A DNA stretch of 64,000 nucleotides, taken from contig NZ_BROB01000001.1 in the NCBI RefSeq assembly GCF_024345185.1, forward strand, positions 62,001 through 126,000, read 5' to 3'. A program made the translations under genes and the position numbers. Of the stretch, positions 14,073 through 23,002 are shown piece after piece (position 1 is the stretch's first letter; every line of letters begins with the position of its first letter). Origin of the DNA: Levilactobacillus humaensis. Its GTDB lineage: Bacteria; Bacillota; Bacilli; Lactobacillales; Lactobacillaceae. The notes under the pieces are model-generated. The model was not told the origin of the DNA. It ran no database searches and worked only from the letters and a program-made list of their open reading frames with translations.

Positions 14073-14744
14073 GTGAGGCGGCTTAATTATCTGTGGGGCT
14101 TAACTGCCGCACCAAAGCCGAAAATCACGAGATCAAAGGAGGTCAGTGTCATTATATTCCTATTAATTTGTATCCTACTGGGCGGTTATGGCGTCTGGTG
14201 GGCCTTCTTCAAGACCACGAAACGTCACTGGATCATTGGCATCCTCGGGGTGCTGGTCATTCTGTTGGGATTCGGCGGTCTAGGGAGCACGGGCGACTCA
14301 GCTGCACCCAAGACCAAAACCATTAAGGTCGGTACCGCCCGCCTAGCCAAGGCGCAGGCCGAGTCCAGCCGTCTAGCCGATTCAGCGAGTCAACAGTCCA
14401 AGGCGAGTGCGGCCCTGGATGACCAGAGCAGCTCGCTGGCTGCTTCCGCTTCATCAGTAGCCAAAGCCAAGAAGGCTAGCCAGAAACAAGCTGCAAGTGA
14501 AGCCGCCAGCGCCCGTAAGGCCGAAACGGCGACCAGTCAAGCAGCAGCGACTAGTGCCAGTTCCCATAAAACCCACCGGGGTAATCTGAACACCAGTCAA
14601 CGCGGCAAAATCATTGGCAATCGGAATTCCAAAATTTACCACACCGCGGACCAGGCTGGTTACCGCATGAATAGTCAAAACGCGGTGTACTTCCAGACCG
14701 AAGCTCAGGCCCAGGCCGCTGGCTATAGAAAGGCGCGTCGCTAA
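14073..14744 (+). CDS. Membrane protein with C-terminal sunset domain
   Basis: Two membrane segments lie near the N terminus (about residues 27-47 and 52-70 from the GTG at 14073). An Ala/Ser/Lys-rich low-complexity linker follows (about 85-175). The C-terminal module has GKIIGNRNSKIYH, NAVYFQTEAQAQAAGYRKA, matching the small sunset domain often found near secreted nucleases. The GTG at 14073 has no ribosome binding site. A strong AAAGGAGG at 14135-14142 instead faces the in-frame ATT at 14151, eight bases on and exactly at the start of the first membrane helix, so the real start may be that ATT. The stop overlaps the ATG of the nuclease gene. Confidence 0.75.
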   Translation: MRRLNYLWGLTAAPKPKITRSKEVSVIIFLLICILLGGYGVWWAFFKTTKRHWIIGILGVLVILLGFGGLGSTGDSAAPKTKTIKVGTARLAKAQAESSRLADSASQQSKASAALDDQSSSLAASASSVAKAKKASQKQAASEAASARKAETATSQAAATSASSHKTHRGNLNTSQRGKIIGNRNSKIYHTADQAGYRMNSQNAVYFQTEAQAQAAGYRKARR

Positions 14745-15586
14745 TGTCAAAGAAATTTCGAATCACGCTATACATACTCACGGGTCTCACCCTCTTACTT
14801 GGGGGTTGTGGCTCCCAGCAGGCCAGCCATTCTACGGCTAGCTCAACCAAGATCGTCCGCGACCACGGTCCAGAAAAGAAAGCCATTAAGCTTGAAAAGG
14901 CAAATGCCGCGGAAAAGAAGCGCCTCGACCGCGAACAGACCCGCTTGAATCAGCAACAGGCCGCCTTGAAAAAGGAAGCCCACCACAAGAAAGCTAAGAA
15001 GTCCGCTAAAACAAACCTCTCCACTCTGTCCTACAATGGCCAACAGGAGATCACGATTGATGGGAATAACCCCCACTTCAGTCGTCAACAACTGTCAACG
15101 GCTAAGGGGGCTTGGCAAACCTACCACAACTTAGACGGCTTGAATCGGGTAACCGGTGCGGCTGCCCTCTTGAACCAATCCCTGATGCCTAAGAATAAGC
15201 GTGAAGCCTTAACGGTGGACCCGACTGGTTGGCACAACAAGCGCACGGCTCATGGCTGGCTCTACAATCGGAGCCATCTGATCGGTTACCAATTTACCGG
15301 ACAAAATAACAATATGAAGAATCTCATGACTGGGACCCGAACACTGAACAATCCCAGCATGCTGCATAACGAAATGGACGTCGCAACCTACCTCAAGGCC
15401 AGTCGTAAAAATTACGTCCGCTACACCGTGACGCCAATCTTCAAGGGCAACGAGCTCGTCGCCCGCGGCGTTCAAATGCGCGCTCAGTCCATTGGCAGTA
15501 ATGCCGTGCGCTTCAACGTCTATATCTTTAACATTGAACCCGGCTATCACATTGATTATGGCACCGGGTATAGTCGCGCTAGCTAA
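14744..15586 (+). CDS. DNA/RNA non-specific endonuclease lipoprotein (NUC1 family)
   Basis: A surface-anchored nuclease of 280 residues. The lipobox LLGGC ends a signal peptide at about residue 22. A Lys/Glu-rich coiled-coil linker (about 45-88) leads to a DNA-entry-nuclease-like domain with the catalytic motif NRSHLIGYQFTGQNNNMKNL (Arg-Ser-His in place of Asp-Arg-Gly-His) and LNNPSMLHNEMDVATYL. Such enzymes degrade external DNA for nutrition or uptake. Its ATG shares an A with the TAA of the preceding gene, so translation is likely coupled. Confidence 0.9.
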   Translation: MSKKFRITLYILTGLTLLLGGCGSQQASHSTASSTKIVRDHGPEKKAIKLEKANAAEKKRLDREQTRLNQQQAALKKEAHHKKAKKSAKTNLSTLSYNGQQEITIDGNNPHFSRQQLSTAKGAWQTYHNLDGLNRVTGAAALLNQSLMPKNKREALTVDPTGWHNKRTAHGWLYNRSHLIGYQFTGQNNNMKNLMTGTRTLNNPSMLHNEMDVATYLKASRKNYVRYTVTPIFKGNELVARGVQMRAQSIGSNAVRFNVYIFNIEPGYHIDYGTGYSRAS

Positions 15587-17973: not shown

Positions 17974-18792
17974 ATGGCACTATTCGGAAATTGTAGCATT
18001 TGTAGCAAGAAATTAAAATTCTGGACCATGAACTATTTGGTGGACGGCCGGCTTTGCGGCGATTGTTGCAAGAAGGTTGGTCTGACCGAAGACATCGATC
18101 ATCTAACCGACGTTGCTGGCACTTACACCGTGCAAGAAATTAAAACTTTAATCGATAATCACCAAAAAATTGATATCAATCATCAGGAAGCTCAACAAGC
18201 GGCCTCTACCGAGCCAACACAGGACGACCTTATTGCCAATCTCAAGCTTTACCAAGAAGCAACCGTCATGGCAGCTTATAAGATTGCGGTTAAATCTGGC
18301 ATTGATTGGTCTTCTGTCGTGATTGCCCTGAGGGGGACCAACAAGGAATTTCTCATTGCCACCAACGATCAAGTTGCCATTATCAAGACTGGCTTTATGA
18401 CTGGTCATACCTTAGGAAGTGGCGTCTTCAGAATGCCCTACAGCAATATTACCAACGCTCAGGTCGACTACCATATGTTAAGCGGCTACTTTGAAATTGC
18501 GGCCGGTGGGGTTCAAAACACCGCTAAAAATTACTGGTCCACTGGTTCCGACTCCCCACAGGAATCACCCAACACCATCACCCTAACTGGGGACGCCTTA
18601 CGCCAGCACTTTCTTCAAGCGGCCGACTTAATTAATAGCTATGTCGCCTTGTCCCATCAACCACAGGCCGCTGTGGCAAGTCCTACGCAAGATCCCGTTG
18701 ATGAGATTCGTAAGTTTAAAGGACTCTTGGATGATGGGATTATTACTCAGGAAGAGTTTGATACTAAGAAGAAGCAGTTGCTGGGGCTGTAA
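17974..18792 (+). CDS. Zinc-ribbon / PH-like / SHOCT domain protein
   Basis: A 272-residue cytosolic protein with three parts. The N-terminal Cys cluster (CSICSKKL, then CGDCCKK; about 7-35) resembles DUF4428. A central beta-rich region (about 95-225, with IATNDQVAIIKTGF and FRMPYSNITNAQV) resembles bacterial PH-like domains. The C terminus (about 238-272, DPVDEIRKFKGLLDDGIITQ and following) is a clear SHOCT domain. Such proteins are common in Firmicutes and phages, with no agreed function. The ATG at 17974 has no close ribosome binding site; see the minicistron before it. Confidence 0.8.
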   Translation: MALFGNCSICSKKLKFWTMNYLVDGRLCGDCCKKVGLTEDIDHLTDVAGTYTVQEIKTLIDNHQKIDINHQEAQQAASTEPTQDDLIANLKLYQEATVMAAYKIAVKSGIDWSSVVIALRGTNKEFLIATNDQVAIIKTGFMTGHTLGSGVFRMPYSNITNAQVDYHMLSGYFEIAAGGVQNTAKNYWSTGSDSPQESPNTITLTGDALRQHFLQAADLINSYVALSHQPQAAVASPTQDPVDEIRKFKGLLDDGIITQEEFDTKKKQLLGL

Positions 18793-19346
18793 CCAATTAG
18801 AGTAATTGGTTTCAAGCAAAATCACCTGTGTCTTTATGTGTTACATTTTTCATCCACATACAAACCACTTTCAAGTCTCTTTACACCAAAAATATCTAAG
18901 CATTCTAATTTCATTACTATGTTTCGATTCTGGCCCCTTAAAAAAGACAAGTCATTTTATCCTGAATAGTGGCTAGAAATGCTTTATAACAGTTGGATTA
19001 TTTTGAAATTTACTTGAAACGCCCCCCAAAATTTCATTTTTTCACATTTGTAAAACGTATGAATATAACGATTGGGGCATCTTTTGCGGCGAATCTTAGT
19101 TATTAATTCAGATCTAGCATTGCCCATAAACATACTGATAGCAGTATTGCTTCGAAGGATCTAAGTATTAAACTCGTAACAGAAAAAATGTCGTTGACTG
19201 ATTTAAGGATCAAATCTTAATGAAAGCAGAGGCTTGAACCCTAAAAACTATAAGGTTCAAGCCCCTATTACATAACATTGCTATCTATTGACTCCGTCAA
19301 TTACGCTTCCGAGATTACACCCTTTTAATGTCAAATACTTGGAACC
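18793..19346 (+). other. AT-rich intergenic stretch between the SHOCT gene and the Kiwa-like pair
   Basis: These 554 bases hold a weak hairpin (AACCAATTA/TAATTGGTT) after the SHOCT gene and a stronger hairpin at 19231-19263. A 49-codon minus-strand frame at 18984-19133 has no ribosome binding site and no recognised homology. The base composition is markedly more AT-rich than the flanking housekeeping genes. It looks like non-coding or decayed sequence at the border of an acquired island. Confidence 0.4.
19231..19263 (-). terminator. Hairpin downstream of the Kiwa-like pair
   Basis: A perfect 10-bp stem (GGCTTGAACC and its complement) with a 13-nt loop lies 84 bases after the stop of the membrane-protein gene. 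The T tract is weak on both strands. Confidence 0.5.
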
Positions 19347-19898
19347 CTAATCAACAGGTTTAATTAAGAAAACGTCTGACACAATAACCTTCTTTTTGAC
19401 AACAATGTTATTATCTTTCATTTGTTTCAACTTGTCGGCAGATATTCTCGTAATTATTGTTGCTCTTCCATCCCCAGTGCTAACAAAAACCCTGTAACCA
19501 GCCAAACCAAGAATTGGATTTAAATATTCTAGGTCATACCGAACGTAAAGCGATGCAATTAAAGAAAAAAGTAACAAATTAGAAATAACACTAGGTAAAT
19601 TTCGTAAATCGAGAGTCATGAATGGAATTAGATAAGTAACTATATAGCTCACAATATTGTCGCCTATCAGTTTATAATTATCATTTAATTCTACCTCTCG
19701 AGTACCTCTAAAAAAAATCATCCGAAGATTGGTAACCGTAGCTAGAATCATCAAAAAAATCATCAAGAATAAAAAAACAACAACTGACCATTTAGTCATA
19801 TTAGAAAGACAATAGTTAAATTGATTAATTAACAACATAAGGTAAAGCGGCGCAAAAGAAGCATTAAACATCATAATTTTTGAGAAGTAGTCTTTCAA
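19347..19898 (-). CDS. Four-helix membrane protein, KwaA-like position
   Basis: A 183-residue protein with four predicted membrane segments (about 9-28, 36-57, 82-99 and 103-121) and a C-terminal soluble tail (about 130-183, beginning GLAGYRVFVSTGDGRATIIT). The start is TTG at 19898, four to five bases after AGGA. It lies 14 bases after the stop of the KwaB-like gene. A four-helix membrane partner of about 200 residues next to a DUF4868 protein is the arrangement of the Kiwa anti-phage system (KwaA senses at the membrane). Homology to KwaA itself is not provable by eye. Codon and base use are AT-rich. Confidence 0.6.
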   Translation of the reverse strand: MKDYFSKIMMFNASFAPLYLMLLINQFNYCLSNMTKWSVVVFLFLMIFLMILATVTNLRMIFFRGTREVELNDNYKLIGDNIVSYIVTYLIPFMTLDLRNLPSVISNLLLFSLIASLYVRYDLEYLNPILGLAGYRVFVSTGDGRATIITRISADKLKQMKDNNIVVKKKVIVSDVFLIKPVD

Positions 19899-19912
19899 TT
19901 ATCCTGTCCCCC

Positions 19913-20875
19913 CTACATGCTAGGGTCTATTCCACTTCTATGCCCAATAATCGATTCATATGGGGCATCTGCAATTAATGTAATTAATTCTCTTTTTGTT
20001 TTTTTTGAAAAAAGTAGCTTTCCGTTTGTATCAAACTCGACCACACTGAACTTTTTAAACTCCGGGTCTTTAGACTCAATGACTTTTTTTACTCTTTTGT
20101 AATTTTCCTCAAAATACTTGATTCTTCTACTATCGCGAGCTAGCTTAGTTAATCTGCGCGCAGAAACAGTGTCATCCTCAACGTCTGCCGACATGTCTTC
20201 AGGATTAGAAATAAATACGGCAGTCTGTGGCCTATCAATAAACTTTACAGCCTCTTGCTTGTAAAACTTATCTAGTTCAAAAATCCTTTCAAACAAATTT
20301 GTTGTACCTAAAATCAATATATCATCGTTCATTTGAAGAAAGGAGATTTTGGTGTTGAATCCAAAAACCGGCTTTGTTAATCCAGTAAGTTTACCATCAT
20401 GTAAATTAGCTAAAAAACCGTTTCTCTTAACCTTATTAACAACACCAAAGTTGCTAAAAAAGTGAAGCTTCCCGCTGGGCAAACTTAATTCAGCACAATA
20501 CCCGATAAAATCATCAATTTTCAAATCATTAAAATCAGTGTATGCCTCATCTGTTAATTTACTGGGTAAAGGCTTAATCGTGTTAAATTCTGATGTCTTT
20601 AAACTATAAAACTTTTTCTTACTCTGAGTAGTGATATCAAAATGTTCAACTTCTTTATTGCGATACCGTTTGTTTCGGAATTGATTAACAAATATTTCTA
20701 ATAACTTTTTTTGAACCGATTCTTTAGGCAAGTCAGGTGTATAAACTTGAATAGAGGAATCTGCTTGATCAGTAAATAAAAACAATGACACTTTAGAAAA
20801 ATAATTATCTTCTTGTAGAATTTGAATACTTTCCTTAGTAATTTTCTCCAAATTAATCGAACTATTTTGAGACAT
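19913..20875 (-). CDS. KwaB-like protein (DUF4868), putative phage defence
   Basis: A 320-residue soluble protein. The central and C-terminal part has the DUF4868 pattern as I remember it: a beta-rich core, FGFNTKISFLQMNDDILIL, then a TTNLFERIFELDKFYKQEAV helix, followed by a long basic helical region (about 240-290). KwaB of the Kiwa system carries this domain and acts with membrane protein KwaA against phage. The ATG at 20875 is six bases after AGGGGTG and is chosen over the GTG at 20884. It is the first gene of a two-gene unit in an AT-rich island, in an order opposite to classical kwaA-kwaB. Function is inferred. Confidence 0.6.
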   Translation of the reverse strand: MSQNSSINLEKITKESIQILQEDNYFSKVSLFLFTDQADSSIQVYTPDLPKESVQKKLLEIFVNQFRNKRYRNKEVEHFDITTQSKKKFYSLKTSEFNTIKPLPSKLTDEAYTDFNDLKIDDFIGYCAELSLPSGKLHFFSNFGVVNKVKRNGFLANLHDGKLTGLTKPVFGFNTKISFLQMNDDILILGTTNLFERIFELDKFYKQEAVKFIDRPQTAVFISNPEDMSADVEDDTVSARRLTKLARDSRRIKYFEENYKRVKKVIESKDPEFKKFSVVEFDTNGKLLFSKKTKRELITLIADAPYESIIGHRSGIDPSM

Positions 20876-21105
20876 AGGTGTCACCCCTGATAACTAATTT
20901 ATTACCTCAATAATATCACAAATAACAAATTAAAACGGATGATGGTAAATTAGCAGTGCCTTGTAGTTACATCTTACCAGAACATGTGTTCGCTTTCAAG
21001 TATTAAATACCTTTAACTATAAAATAAGAGTAACCATCTAAAATATCCCCGTAAATAATGCAGTCTTTTTAATTTTTTCATTCCATACATTAAGAGAAAG
21101 AAAGC
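20876..21105 (-). other. Upstream region of the Kiwa-like pair
   Basis: This AT-rich gap between the KwaB-like gene and the lepA terminator must contain the promoter for the pair. A TATTAT-like -10 occurs about 40 bases upstream of the ATG, but no convincing -35 is seen. No coding frame is evident. Confidence 0.35.
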
Positions 21106-21144
21106 GCCACATATTCAGTAAAATACAGCTACTGAATGTGTGGC
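21106..21144 (-). terminator. Terminator of lepA
   Basis: A 15-bp stem (GCCACATATTCAGTA with TACTGAATGTGTGGC, one G-U) is followed on the minus strand by a pyrimidine-rich TTTCTTTCTCTT tail. Confidence 0.7.
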
Positions 21145-21169
21145 ACTAATTCTGTTATATCAACGTTTC

Positions 21170-23002
21170 TTACTTAGTTTCATCCTCATCAGTCTTCAAA
21201 ACAGCCATGAACGCTTCCTGCGGGATATCAACCTTCCCAACAGCCTTCATTCGTTTCTTTCCGACCTTTTGCTTTTCGAGCAGCTTCATCCGACGAGTCC
21301 GGTCACCCCCGTAGAGGTGGGCGGTAACGTCCTTCCGGTAAGCCTTGATTGTGGTTCTAGCAATAATCTTGGCCCCAATCGCAGCTTGCACGGGAATTTC
21401 GAAGTTTTGGCGAGGGATGATCTTCTTCAACCGTGAGGCAATCTCACGGCCTCGTTGTGGGGCGAAGGAACGGTGCGCAATGAAGCTCAACGCATCGACC
21501 TTATCCCCATTCAGGAGAATATCAATCTTGACCAGGTCGGCTTCTGCATAGCCATTCGTTTCGTAATCCAGGGAGGCATAGCCCCGCGTGCTGGACTTCA
21601 ACTTATCGAAGAAATCAAAGATGATTTCCGACAATGGCATATTATACAGAATATTAACCCGGTATTCATCCAGGTATTCCATTGTTAAGAACTGACCCCG
21701 ACGATGTTGGCACAGCTCCATGATCGCCCCGACATATTCGTTAGGTGCCATGATCGTGGCCTTGACGATTGGTTCTTCAATCCGTTTGATCGAGGACGCC
21801 TCAGGCATTTCTGCGGGGTTCTCGACTTCCTTCATTGACCCATCCGTCAGATAAGCGTGGTAGGTTACGGATGGTGCCGTTGTAATCAGTTCAAGATTGA
21901 ATTCACGTTCCAAACGTTCCTGCACGACATCCATATGCAACATCCCCAAGAACCCACAACGGAAACCAAAGCCCAATGCTTGTGAGGATTCAGGTTCAAA
22001 TTCCAAGGCAGCATCGTTTAACTTCAACTTTTCCAACGCTTCACGCAGGTCGGTCAGCTTGGCATTATCCGTGGGATACAGCCCGGCATAAACCATTGGA
22101 GCCATTTCACGATAACCTGGTAAGGCTTTTTCCGCTGGATTATCGGCATCCGTCACGGTATCCCCAACTCGGGTATCCGTAATATCCTTGATGCTGGCAG
22201 TAATGTAACCCACATCCCCAGCAATCAGGTATTCCCGTGAGATTGGTTTGGGCGAGTTCACCCCAACTTCGGTCACTTCATAGACACTTCCGGAGTTCAT
22301 CAATTGAATCTTATCGCCTGGTTGAACGGTTCCTTCGAAGACCCGGACACTCAGCACAACCCCACGATAATCATCGTAGACGGAATCAAAGACCAAGGCC
22401 TTTAATGGCGCATCCAAATCACCGGTTGGTGCCGGCACCTTGTCGACAATCTGTTCCAACAGTTCCGGAATCCCGATCCCCTGCTTGGCACTGGCCAAGA
22501 CAGCATCGGAGGCATCCAGCCCAATGACATCTTCAATTTCGGTCTTAACCTTCTCTGGGTCAGCGGAAGGCAAATCAATCTTATTGATAACCGGGACGAT
22601 TTCCAAATCGTCATCGAGTGCCAGATAAACATTGGCTAACGTCTGCGCTTCGACCCCTTGCGCGGCATCCACGACCAGAATGGCCCCTTCACAGGCCGCC
22701 AGGCTCCGTGAGACCTCATAGGAGAAGTCCACGTGTCCTGGGGTATCAATCAGGTGAAACTCATAGTCATGGCCGTCCTTGGCGTGATACGTCAATTCTA
22801 CGGCATTTAACTTGATCGTAATCCCACGTTCTCGTTCGAGATCCATGTTATCCAACACTTGATCTTGCATGTCTCGCTTGGAAATCGTATCCGTCAATTC
22901 CAGAATACGGTCCGCGAGCGTCGACTTCCCGTGGTCAATGTGCGCCACAATGGAGAAGTTGCGAATGTATTTTTGATGGTTTTTTAATTTCTCAAGATCC
23001 AT
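21170..23002 (-). CDS. lepA: Elongation factor 4 (LepA)
   Basis: A ribosome-associated translational GTPase of 610 residues, full length. The G1 motif is [11 protein letters not shown]3 is DTPGHVDF and G4 is NKIDLPSAD. Domains II and III and the LepA-specific C-terminal domain ([20 protein letters not shown] and [16 protein letters not shown]) follow. It acts on stalled or mis-translocated ribosomes. It is a single-gene unit here, with its own terminator; the Kiwa-like island is immediately downstream. Confidence 0.97.

Follow-up and report, generated by a model that had tools for sequence, protein, structure and literature searches.

The window, a stretch of 64,000 nt from Levilactobacillus humaensis, carries on its minus strand two adjacent open reading frames in the order kwaB, kwaA. 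The first, kwaB (19913–20875, minus strand), codes for a putative KwaB/DUF4868 protein of 320 aa, assigned from the open reading frame together with the Pfam profile PF16162 and the PADLOC profile PDLC00236. It starts with an ATG at 20875; the mechanically called frame begins instead with a GTG at 20884, which falls within the ribosome-binding-site-like run upstream of the gene. The second, kwaA (19347–19898, minus strand), begins with a TTG 14 nt after the kwaB stop codon and encodes a predicted membrane protein of 183 aa, assigned as KwaA from its open reading frame, PDLC00217 and the solved KwaA structures, by sequence and by fold. By eye, G-rich runs resembling ribosome-binding sites precede both starts, that of kwaA (GGGGGACAG) lying immediately 5' of its TTG. 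A terminator-like hairpin with 17 pairs (19227–19267, minus strand) is placed 80 nt after kwaA; as a count, the two terminator-like sites in the region are at chance level (1.0, sd 1.0, in shuffled sequences). The same is true of the promoter-like sites (10 vs 10.7 in shuffles), a result counted against the reading preferred here. The 5' neighbour of kwaB is lepA (21170–23002), which runs in the same direction and, by eye, seems to end in a hairpin of its own, so that kwaB and kwaA probably form a separate transcription unit.

On its sequence profiles, the first protein is a member of the KwaB family. It matched PF16162 (DUF4868) with an E-value of 3.2e-16 (60.3 bits, cut-off 26.3) and PDLC00236 with 6.8e-66, covering residues 7–319 of 320. 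An 11-row family profile, one row of which is the window protein, reached solved KwaB at 7.9e-13 (positions 5–311 of 319), and when the window protein and two relatives were compared, profile against profile, with five proteins of Gram-negative or archaeal origin, the result was 86.6% (E 4.5e-6). Several results were counted against the preferred reading: a phmmer search of the PDB with the window KwaB alone found no solved KwaB, the nearest KwaB among those compared is 28% identical, and the NCBIfam equivalog cut-off was missed (58 vs 200 bits). The AlphaFold model, built from three sequences, has a pLDDT of 38, and the top match of this poor model in the fold search was the KwaB dimer 9nyu_A, with a non-significant E-value of 0.18; this too was counted on the opposing side.

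The second protein is, as judged from profiles and model, a KwaA family member. It matched PDLC00217 at 2.1e-38 over residues 1–180 of 183 and the solved KwaA chains, by sequence, at 9.1e-6; the profile-profile comparison, set up as for KwaB with two relatives on the window side and five proteins on the other, gave 99.0% (4.5e-18). Here too the NCBIfam equivalog cut-off was missed (57 vs 100 bits) and counted against the preferred reading. The AlphaFold model, obtained from a three-row alignment, is of low confidence (pLDDT 51) and places helices at residues 2–30, 36–63, 83–94 and 101–119, and a short one at 124–132, followed by a strand-rich tail. An earlier note on this DNA had described a four-helix membrane protein with a soluble tail, which is consistent with this low-confidence model; simple hydropathy reveals strong stretches only at 30–64 and 101–119. 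In Foldseek the model retrieved solved KwaA first (2.4e-5), all seven chains below 0.001 being KwaA, and it superimposes on 9mrx_A with a Z-score of 10.6 (rmsd 4.3, 172 aligned residues; next unrelated row Z 7.8), a match to be taken with caution since a low-confidence model can mislead and, for helical bundles, Z-scores below about 13 may say little. Because both models are of low confidence, the identity of the two proteins rests first on the sequence profiles, whose matches span nearly the full length of each protein and are far above chance. Every KwaB and KwaA residue that does not vary within the small family alignments is kept in the window copies. We read the NCBIfam equivalog cut-offs as thresholds for close equivalents and not as a defining feature of Kiwa; with both proteins below them, the pair represents a distant Kiwa branch. 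The earlier note had proposed a Kiwa-like module of two diverged proteins at 19347–20875, with the B gene before the A gene and 14 bases between them, and all of this agrees with the two open frames, the missed cut-offs and the matches to PF16162, PDLC00236 and PDLC00217. It had also named a first protein structurally unlike KwaB as an outcome that would speak against Kiwa; at the level of sequence, the profiles tie that protein to KwaB instead, and the structure prediction it suggested gave, for KwaA, the match to the solved protein described above.

The pair is embedded in an AT-rich segment (18793–21130, GC 32.4%) that was not found in the relatives examined. The GC content of the pair is 32.3% against a window median of 50.3%, and only five of the 1250 overlapping stretches of equal length fall lower, these possibly overlapping the pair itself. 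At third codon positions GC amounts to 29–30% in the pair and to 51–57% in the flanking SHOCT gene and lepA. Among 35 genomes of the genus, lepA is present in all and KwaB in one, that of the window, no KwaB being found in the other 34. The lepA loci could be recovered from 30 of the 35 genomes, the window's own among them. In the remaining 29 loci the similarity running through lepA stops at window positions 21098–21178, never more than 72 nt beyond the stop codon of lepA; in some of them the contig itself ends shortly past lepA (118–147 nt in L050, L051 and L067). When segment 18793–21130 was searched in 33 relative loci (the 29 lepA loci plus four stretches from three of the same genomes), a single match at 1e-5 appeared, 27 nt long and at the lepA edge.

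A closer look at individual relatives gave the following picture. In the nearest one (G015), whose LepA is 100% identical, the similarity breaks off at 18792 on one side and at 21131 on the other; each break coincides with the end of a contig, and the two contig ends have a short sequence in common, maybe a repeated element. The contig of G020 ends 150 bp past lepA, and that of G012 continues into sequence unrelated to the window. No clean empty site could be read in the relatives looked at, the contigs of G015 and G020 ending near the junction, and the surrounding repeats belong to short families of two copies each, without a clear insertion mark. The AT-rich composition of the pair and its being the only KwaB in the 35 genomes fit horizontal acquisition. 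Thus, the pair was probably acquired horizontally, and on both this point and the AT-rich island the earlier note is borne out.

Two genes on the far side of the segment from lepA may be mentioned in their own right. The flanking gene at 17974–18792 codes for a DUF4428 and SHOCT protein, also matched by phrog_888 (1.6e-29), with a 97% identical full-length copy in one other of the 35 genomes and partial matches in seven more. Within a stretch that had been called orphan-rich, positions 14744–15586 encode a DNA/RNA non-specific endonuclease (PF13930, 1.7e-39), by eye a lipoprotein.

The order of the two genes was surveyed with KwaA and KwaB profiles made from the family alignments, iterated once and run on the open frames of loci L001–L048 and of the window. 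In the Lactobacillaceae, PDLC00236 was matched in 11 of 397 genomes searched, and kwaA directly follows kwaB in ten of these (own included). Two of the ten (L008 and L011) have broken kwaB frames, and in the eleventh (L012, E 7.5e-4) the survey profiles detect neither gene. Of 398 genomes of the class Bacilli, 15 contained KwaB, at 17 places in all: 15 with kwaB–kwaA (own included), one with kwaA–kwaB (L017) and one below the Pfam cut-off without a pair (L032). Eight KwaB places were seen in 398 genomes of the phylum, L017 and the window's own locus being already in the class count. The six further places comprise kwaA–kwaB in L033 and L035, kwaB–kwaA with a split kwaB in L034, a KwaA match without KwaB by the survey profile in L036, and two places under the cut-off with neither gene (L037, L038). 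At L036:78–1115, a 345-aa open frame with the KwaA match lies beside the Pfam KwaB match and is possibly an extended or fused KwaA. A contig-wide genome scan with the window KwaB alone found nothing, as did a scan of viral contigs for KwaB; with three KwaB rows the contig-wide scan returned two loci, both known from the other searches.

Among named records, kwaB–kwaA is found in phages phi879, CD1801 and JNU_P5 and in plasmids of Paenibacillus and Ligilactobacillus salivarius, some of these phage and plasmid pairs having type I restriction or methylase genes nearby. The opposite order, kwaA–kwaB, occurs in all five Gram-negative or archaeal plasmid records examined (Emticicia, Klebsiella, Salmonella, E. 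coli Nissle and the archaeon Halomarina), a sample of plasmids only that covers 4 of 20 matched records, with Halomarina coming from a separate search. The order kwaB–kwaA is the usual one in Bacilli. The earlier note had called it reversed, a description that does not hold for 15 of 17 Bacilli places and ten of 11 Lactobacillaceae genomes; the possibility it had raised that the two genes are not conserved together is answered by the same ten genomes, own included.

Complete kwaB–kwaA pairs are located in Lactobacillus phage JNU_P5 (L046:2776–4369), Staphylococcus phage phi879 (L013:3809–5379) and Clostridioides phage CD1801 (L014:3647–5198), and therefore the Kiwa branch of the window also travels on phages. 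Streptococcus phage 9874, which infects S. thermophilus and comes from dairy whey, presents a separate case (L045:3767–4692, equivalent to NC_031023.1 28025–28950), in which KwaA appears without a full KwaB. Its gp40 is an intact KwaA of 191 aa (PDLC00217, 1.3e-78), 59% identical to that of Ligilactobacillus salivarius. The first 32 or so residues of the next gene product, gp41, resemble the KwaB C-terminus and are followed by a stretch that other S. thermophilus phages share. The searches of phage sequences found no second phage with KwaA alone. The KwaA of phage 9874 may act as a decoy for Kiwa, or it may be a remnant.

A tree was calculated from 36 pairs, 28 of them kwaB-first and eight kwaA-first. 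Nine loci were left out, five as duplicates (L001, L002, L021, L003 and L004) and four as broken, partial or incomplete (L011, L034, L036 and L045); L012, L032, L037 and L038, with neither gene, are absent, the near-identical L006 and L047 were both retained, and L008 entered with a partial KwaB. On this tree gene order changes twice, whereas shuffled labels need 7.4 changes on average, and none of 500 shuffles was as low. As a result of this clustering, and within the limits set by long branches and weak deep nodes, kwaB-first looks like a lineage trait and not an oddity of the window locus, and in the sample examined gene order looks to follow Kiwa lineage. The passages on Kiwa in PMC11514479, PMC12904381, PMC12322248, PMC8547433 and PMC11811056 contain no discussion of gene order as a trait.

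Gram-positive Kiwa systems are described in several reports. In its passages on Kiwa, PMC11514479 lists the system of Streptococcus thermophilus 90730 as (kwaB, kwaA), ORFs 0688 and 0689 (673224–674776), and gives, for the pair cloned in pNZ44, reductions of 5 and 4 logs for the lactococcal phages sk1 and c2, with about 1 log for phages of streptococci. PMC12322248 reports Kiwa in S. thermophilus, with plasmid tests; its table enters 'DNA degradation' for Kiwa, at variance with the mechanism without cutting given below, and places the system under narrow activity, the latter being counted against the preferred reading. Kiwa is also reported in Dolosigranulum pigrum (PMC8547433) and mentioned in the Bacillus cereus group (PMC11811056). 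Therefore Gram-positive Kiwa, kwaB-first included, is already on record, and the PADLOC models of 2023 already cover the branch of the window. The proposal of the earlier note that this might be an undescribed Gram-positive variant was rejected in view of these models, the cloned S. thermophilus Kiwa (kwaB, kwaA) and the usual order in Bacilli.

By its description in PMC11514479, the S. thermophilus 90730 system resembles the window pair in being Gram-positive, in having kwaB before kwaA and in size (1553 bp vs 1529 bp here), and it too was predicted by PADLOC; it was cloned as a pair. It differs in lying in a CRISPR-linked defence island, whereas the window pair adjoins lepA, and in having a measured activity, that of the window pair being predicted. 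Within the family of the window, a Lactobacillaceae metagenome-assembled genome (L043), Lapidilactobacillus luobeiensis (L044) and a Ligilactobacillus salivarius plasmid (L047) also have kwaB then kwaA, with gaps of 2–6 nt; their KwaB proteins are 24–28% and their KwaA proteins 26–34% identical to those of the window. Upstream of kwaB, where the window has lepA, L043 and L047 carry a type I specificity gene and L044 carries a DNA methylase gene. With the solved Gram-negative systems (9mrg, 9mrr, 9mrx, 9o0i and 9nyu) both proteins are homologous by profile and the KwaA fold was matched, but sequence identity is low, and the Gram-negative and archaeal plasmid records examined show the opposite order.

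Altogether, we assign a probability of roughly 0.93 to the pair being a complete Kiwa of the Bacilli type, with kwaB before kwaA, acquired horizontally beside lepA and using the standard KwaA/KwaB mechanism. This mechanism (sensing, complex formation and DNA binding) is carried over by homology from E. coli Kiwa as presented in the Kiwa passages of a review (PMC12904381), according to which Zhang et al. found that KwaA senses infection at the membrane and that KwaB attaches to the injected DNA and, without cutting it, arrests replication as well as late transcription. In this scenario, a KwaA oligomer in the cell membrane would detect phage attachment or DNA injection, with KwaB dimers held on it; KwaB would then bind the incoming phage DNA and, once bound, block phage replication and late transcription.

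An unlikely alternative is that gene order marks an old split, with the kwaB-first branch of Bacilli sensing phage entry or restraining KwaB differently from E. coli Kiwa, fitted to a single-membrane envelope, and with the window pair as one of its diverged members. It overlaps with the preferred explanation and does not exclude standard Kiwa. The clustering of order on the 36-pair tree, on which one split was not rejected (AU p 0.479), is in its favour, together with the low identities and the missed equivalog cut-offs; yet most of the length of both proteins is homologous to the Gram-negative type, Bacillota have kwaA-first pairs as well (L017, L033 and L035), and a single change of order was recovered in only 40% of 200 bootstrap trees, in a tree with weak deep nodes and long branches (L035, L048, L042 and L019) that meet.

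It is also conceivable, at a markedly lower probability, that the pair is intact in sequence and no longer works in its host, carried along on a segment acquired recently. Such a condition would accord with the lack of KwaB matches in the rest of the genus sample (34 genomes), with promoter-like sites at no more than chance frequency and with the broken kwaB frames of two relatives (L008 and L011), but in the window neither frame is broken, the starts are plausible and the invariant residues are present. Most improbable is that this is not Kiwa but a chance pairing, either of genes without any relation or of a membrane protein with a DUF4868 protein of other function. The missed cut-offs and the E-value of 0.18 for the KwaB model (pLDDT 38) would agree with it; against these stand the Pfam match of KwaB, the PADLOC matches of both proteins, the KwaA fold match and the recurrence of this pairing in Bacilli, on phages and on plasmids.

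The complete Bacilli-type Kiwa thus preferred is an intact system, diverged from the Gram-negative type and with an order normal for Bacilli, the activity of this copy being one we infer by homology. With it, a diverged pair from a lactic-acid bacterium joins the known Kiwa systems, and the notion that kwaB-first is unusual is corrected. That the NCBIfam equivalog thresholds miss both proteins is useful for annotation, and the pair is of use when picking Gram-positive Kiwa systems for comparison with that of E. coli.
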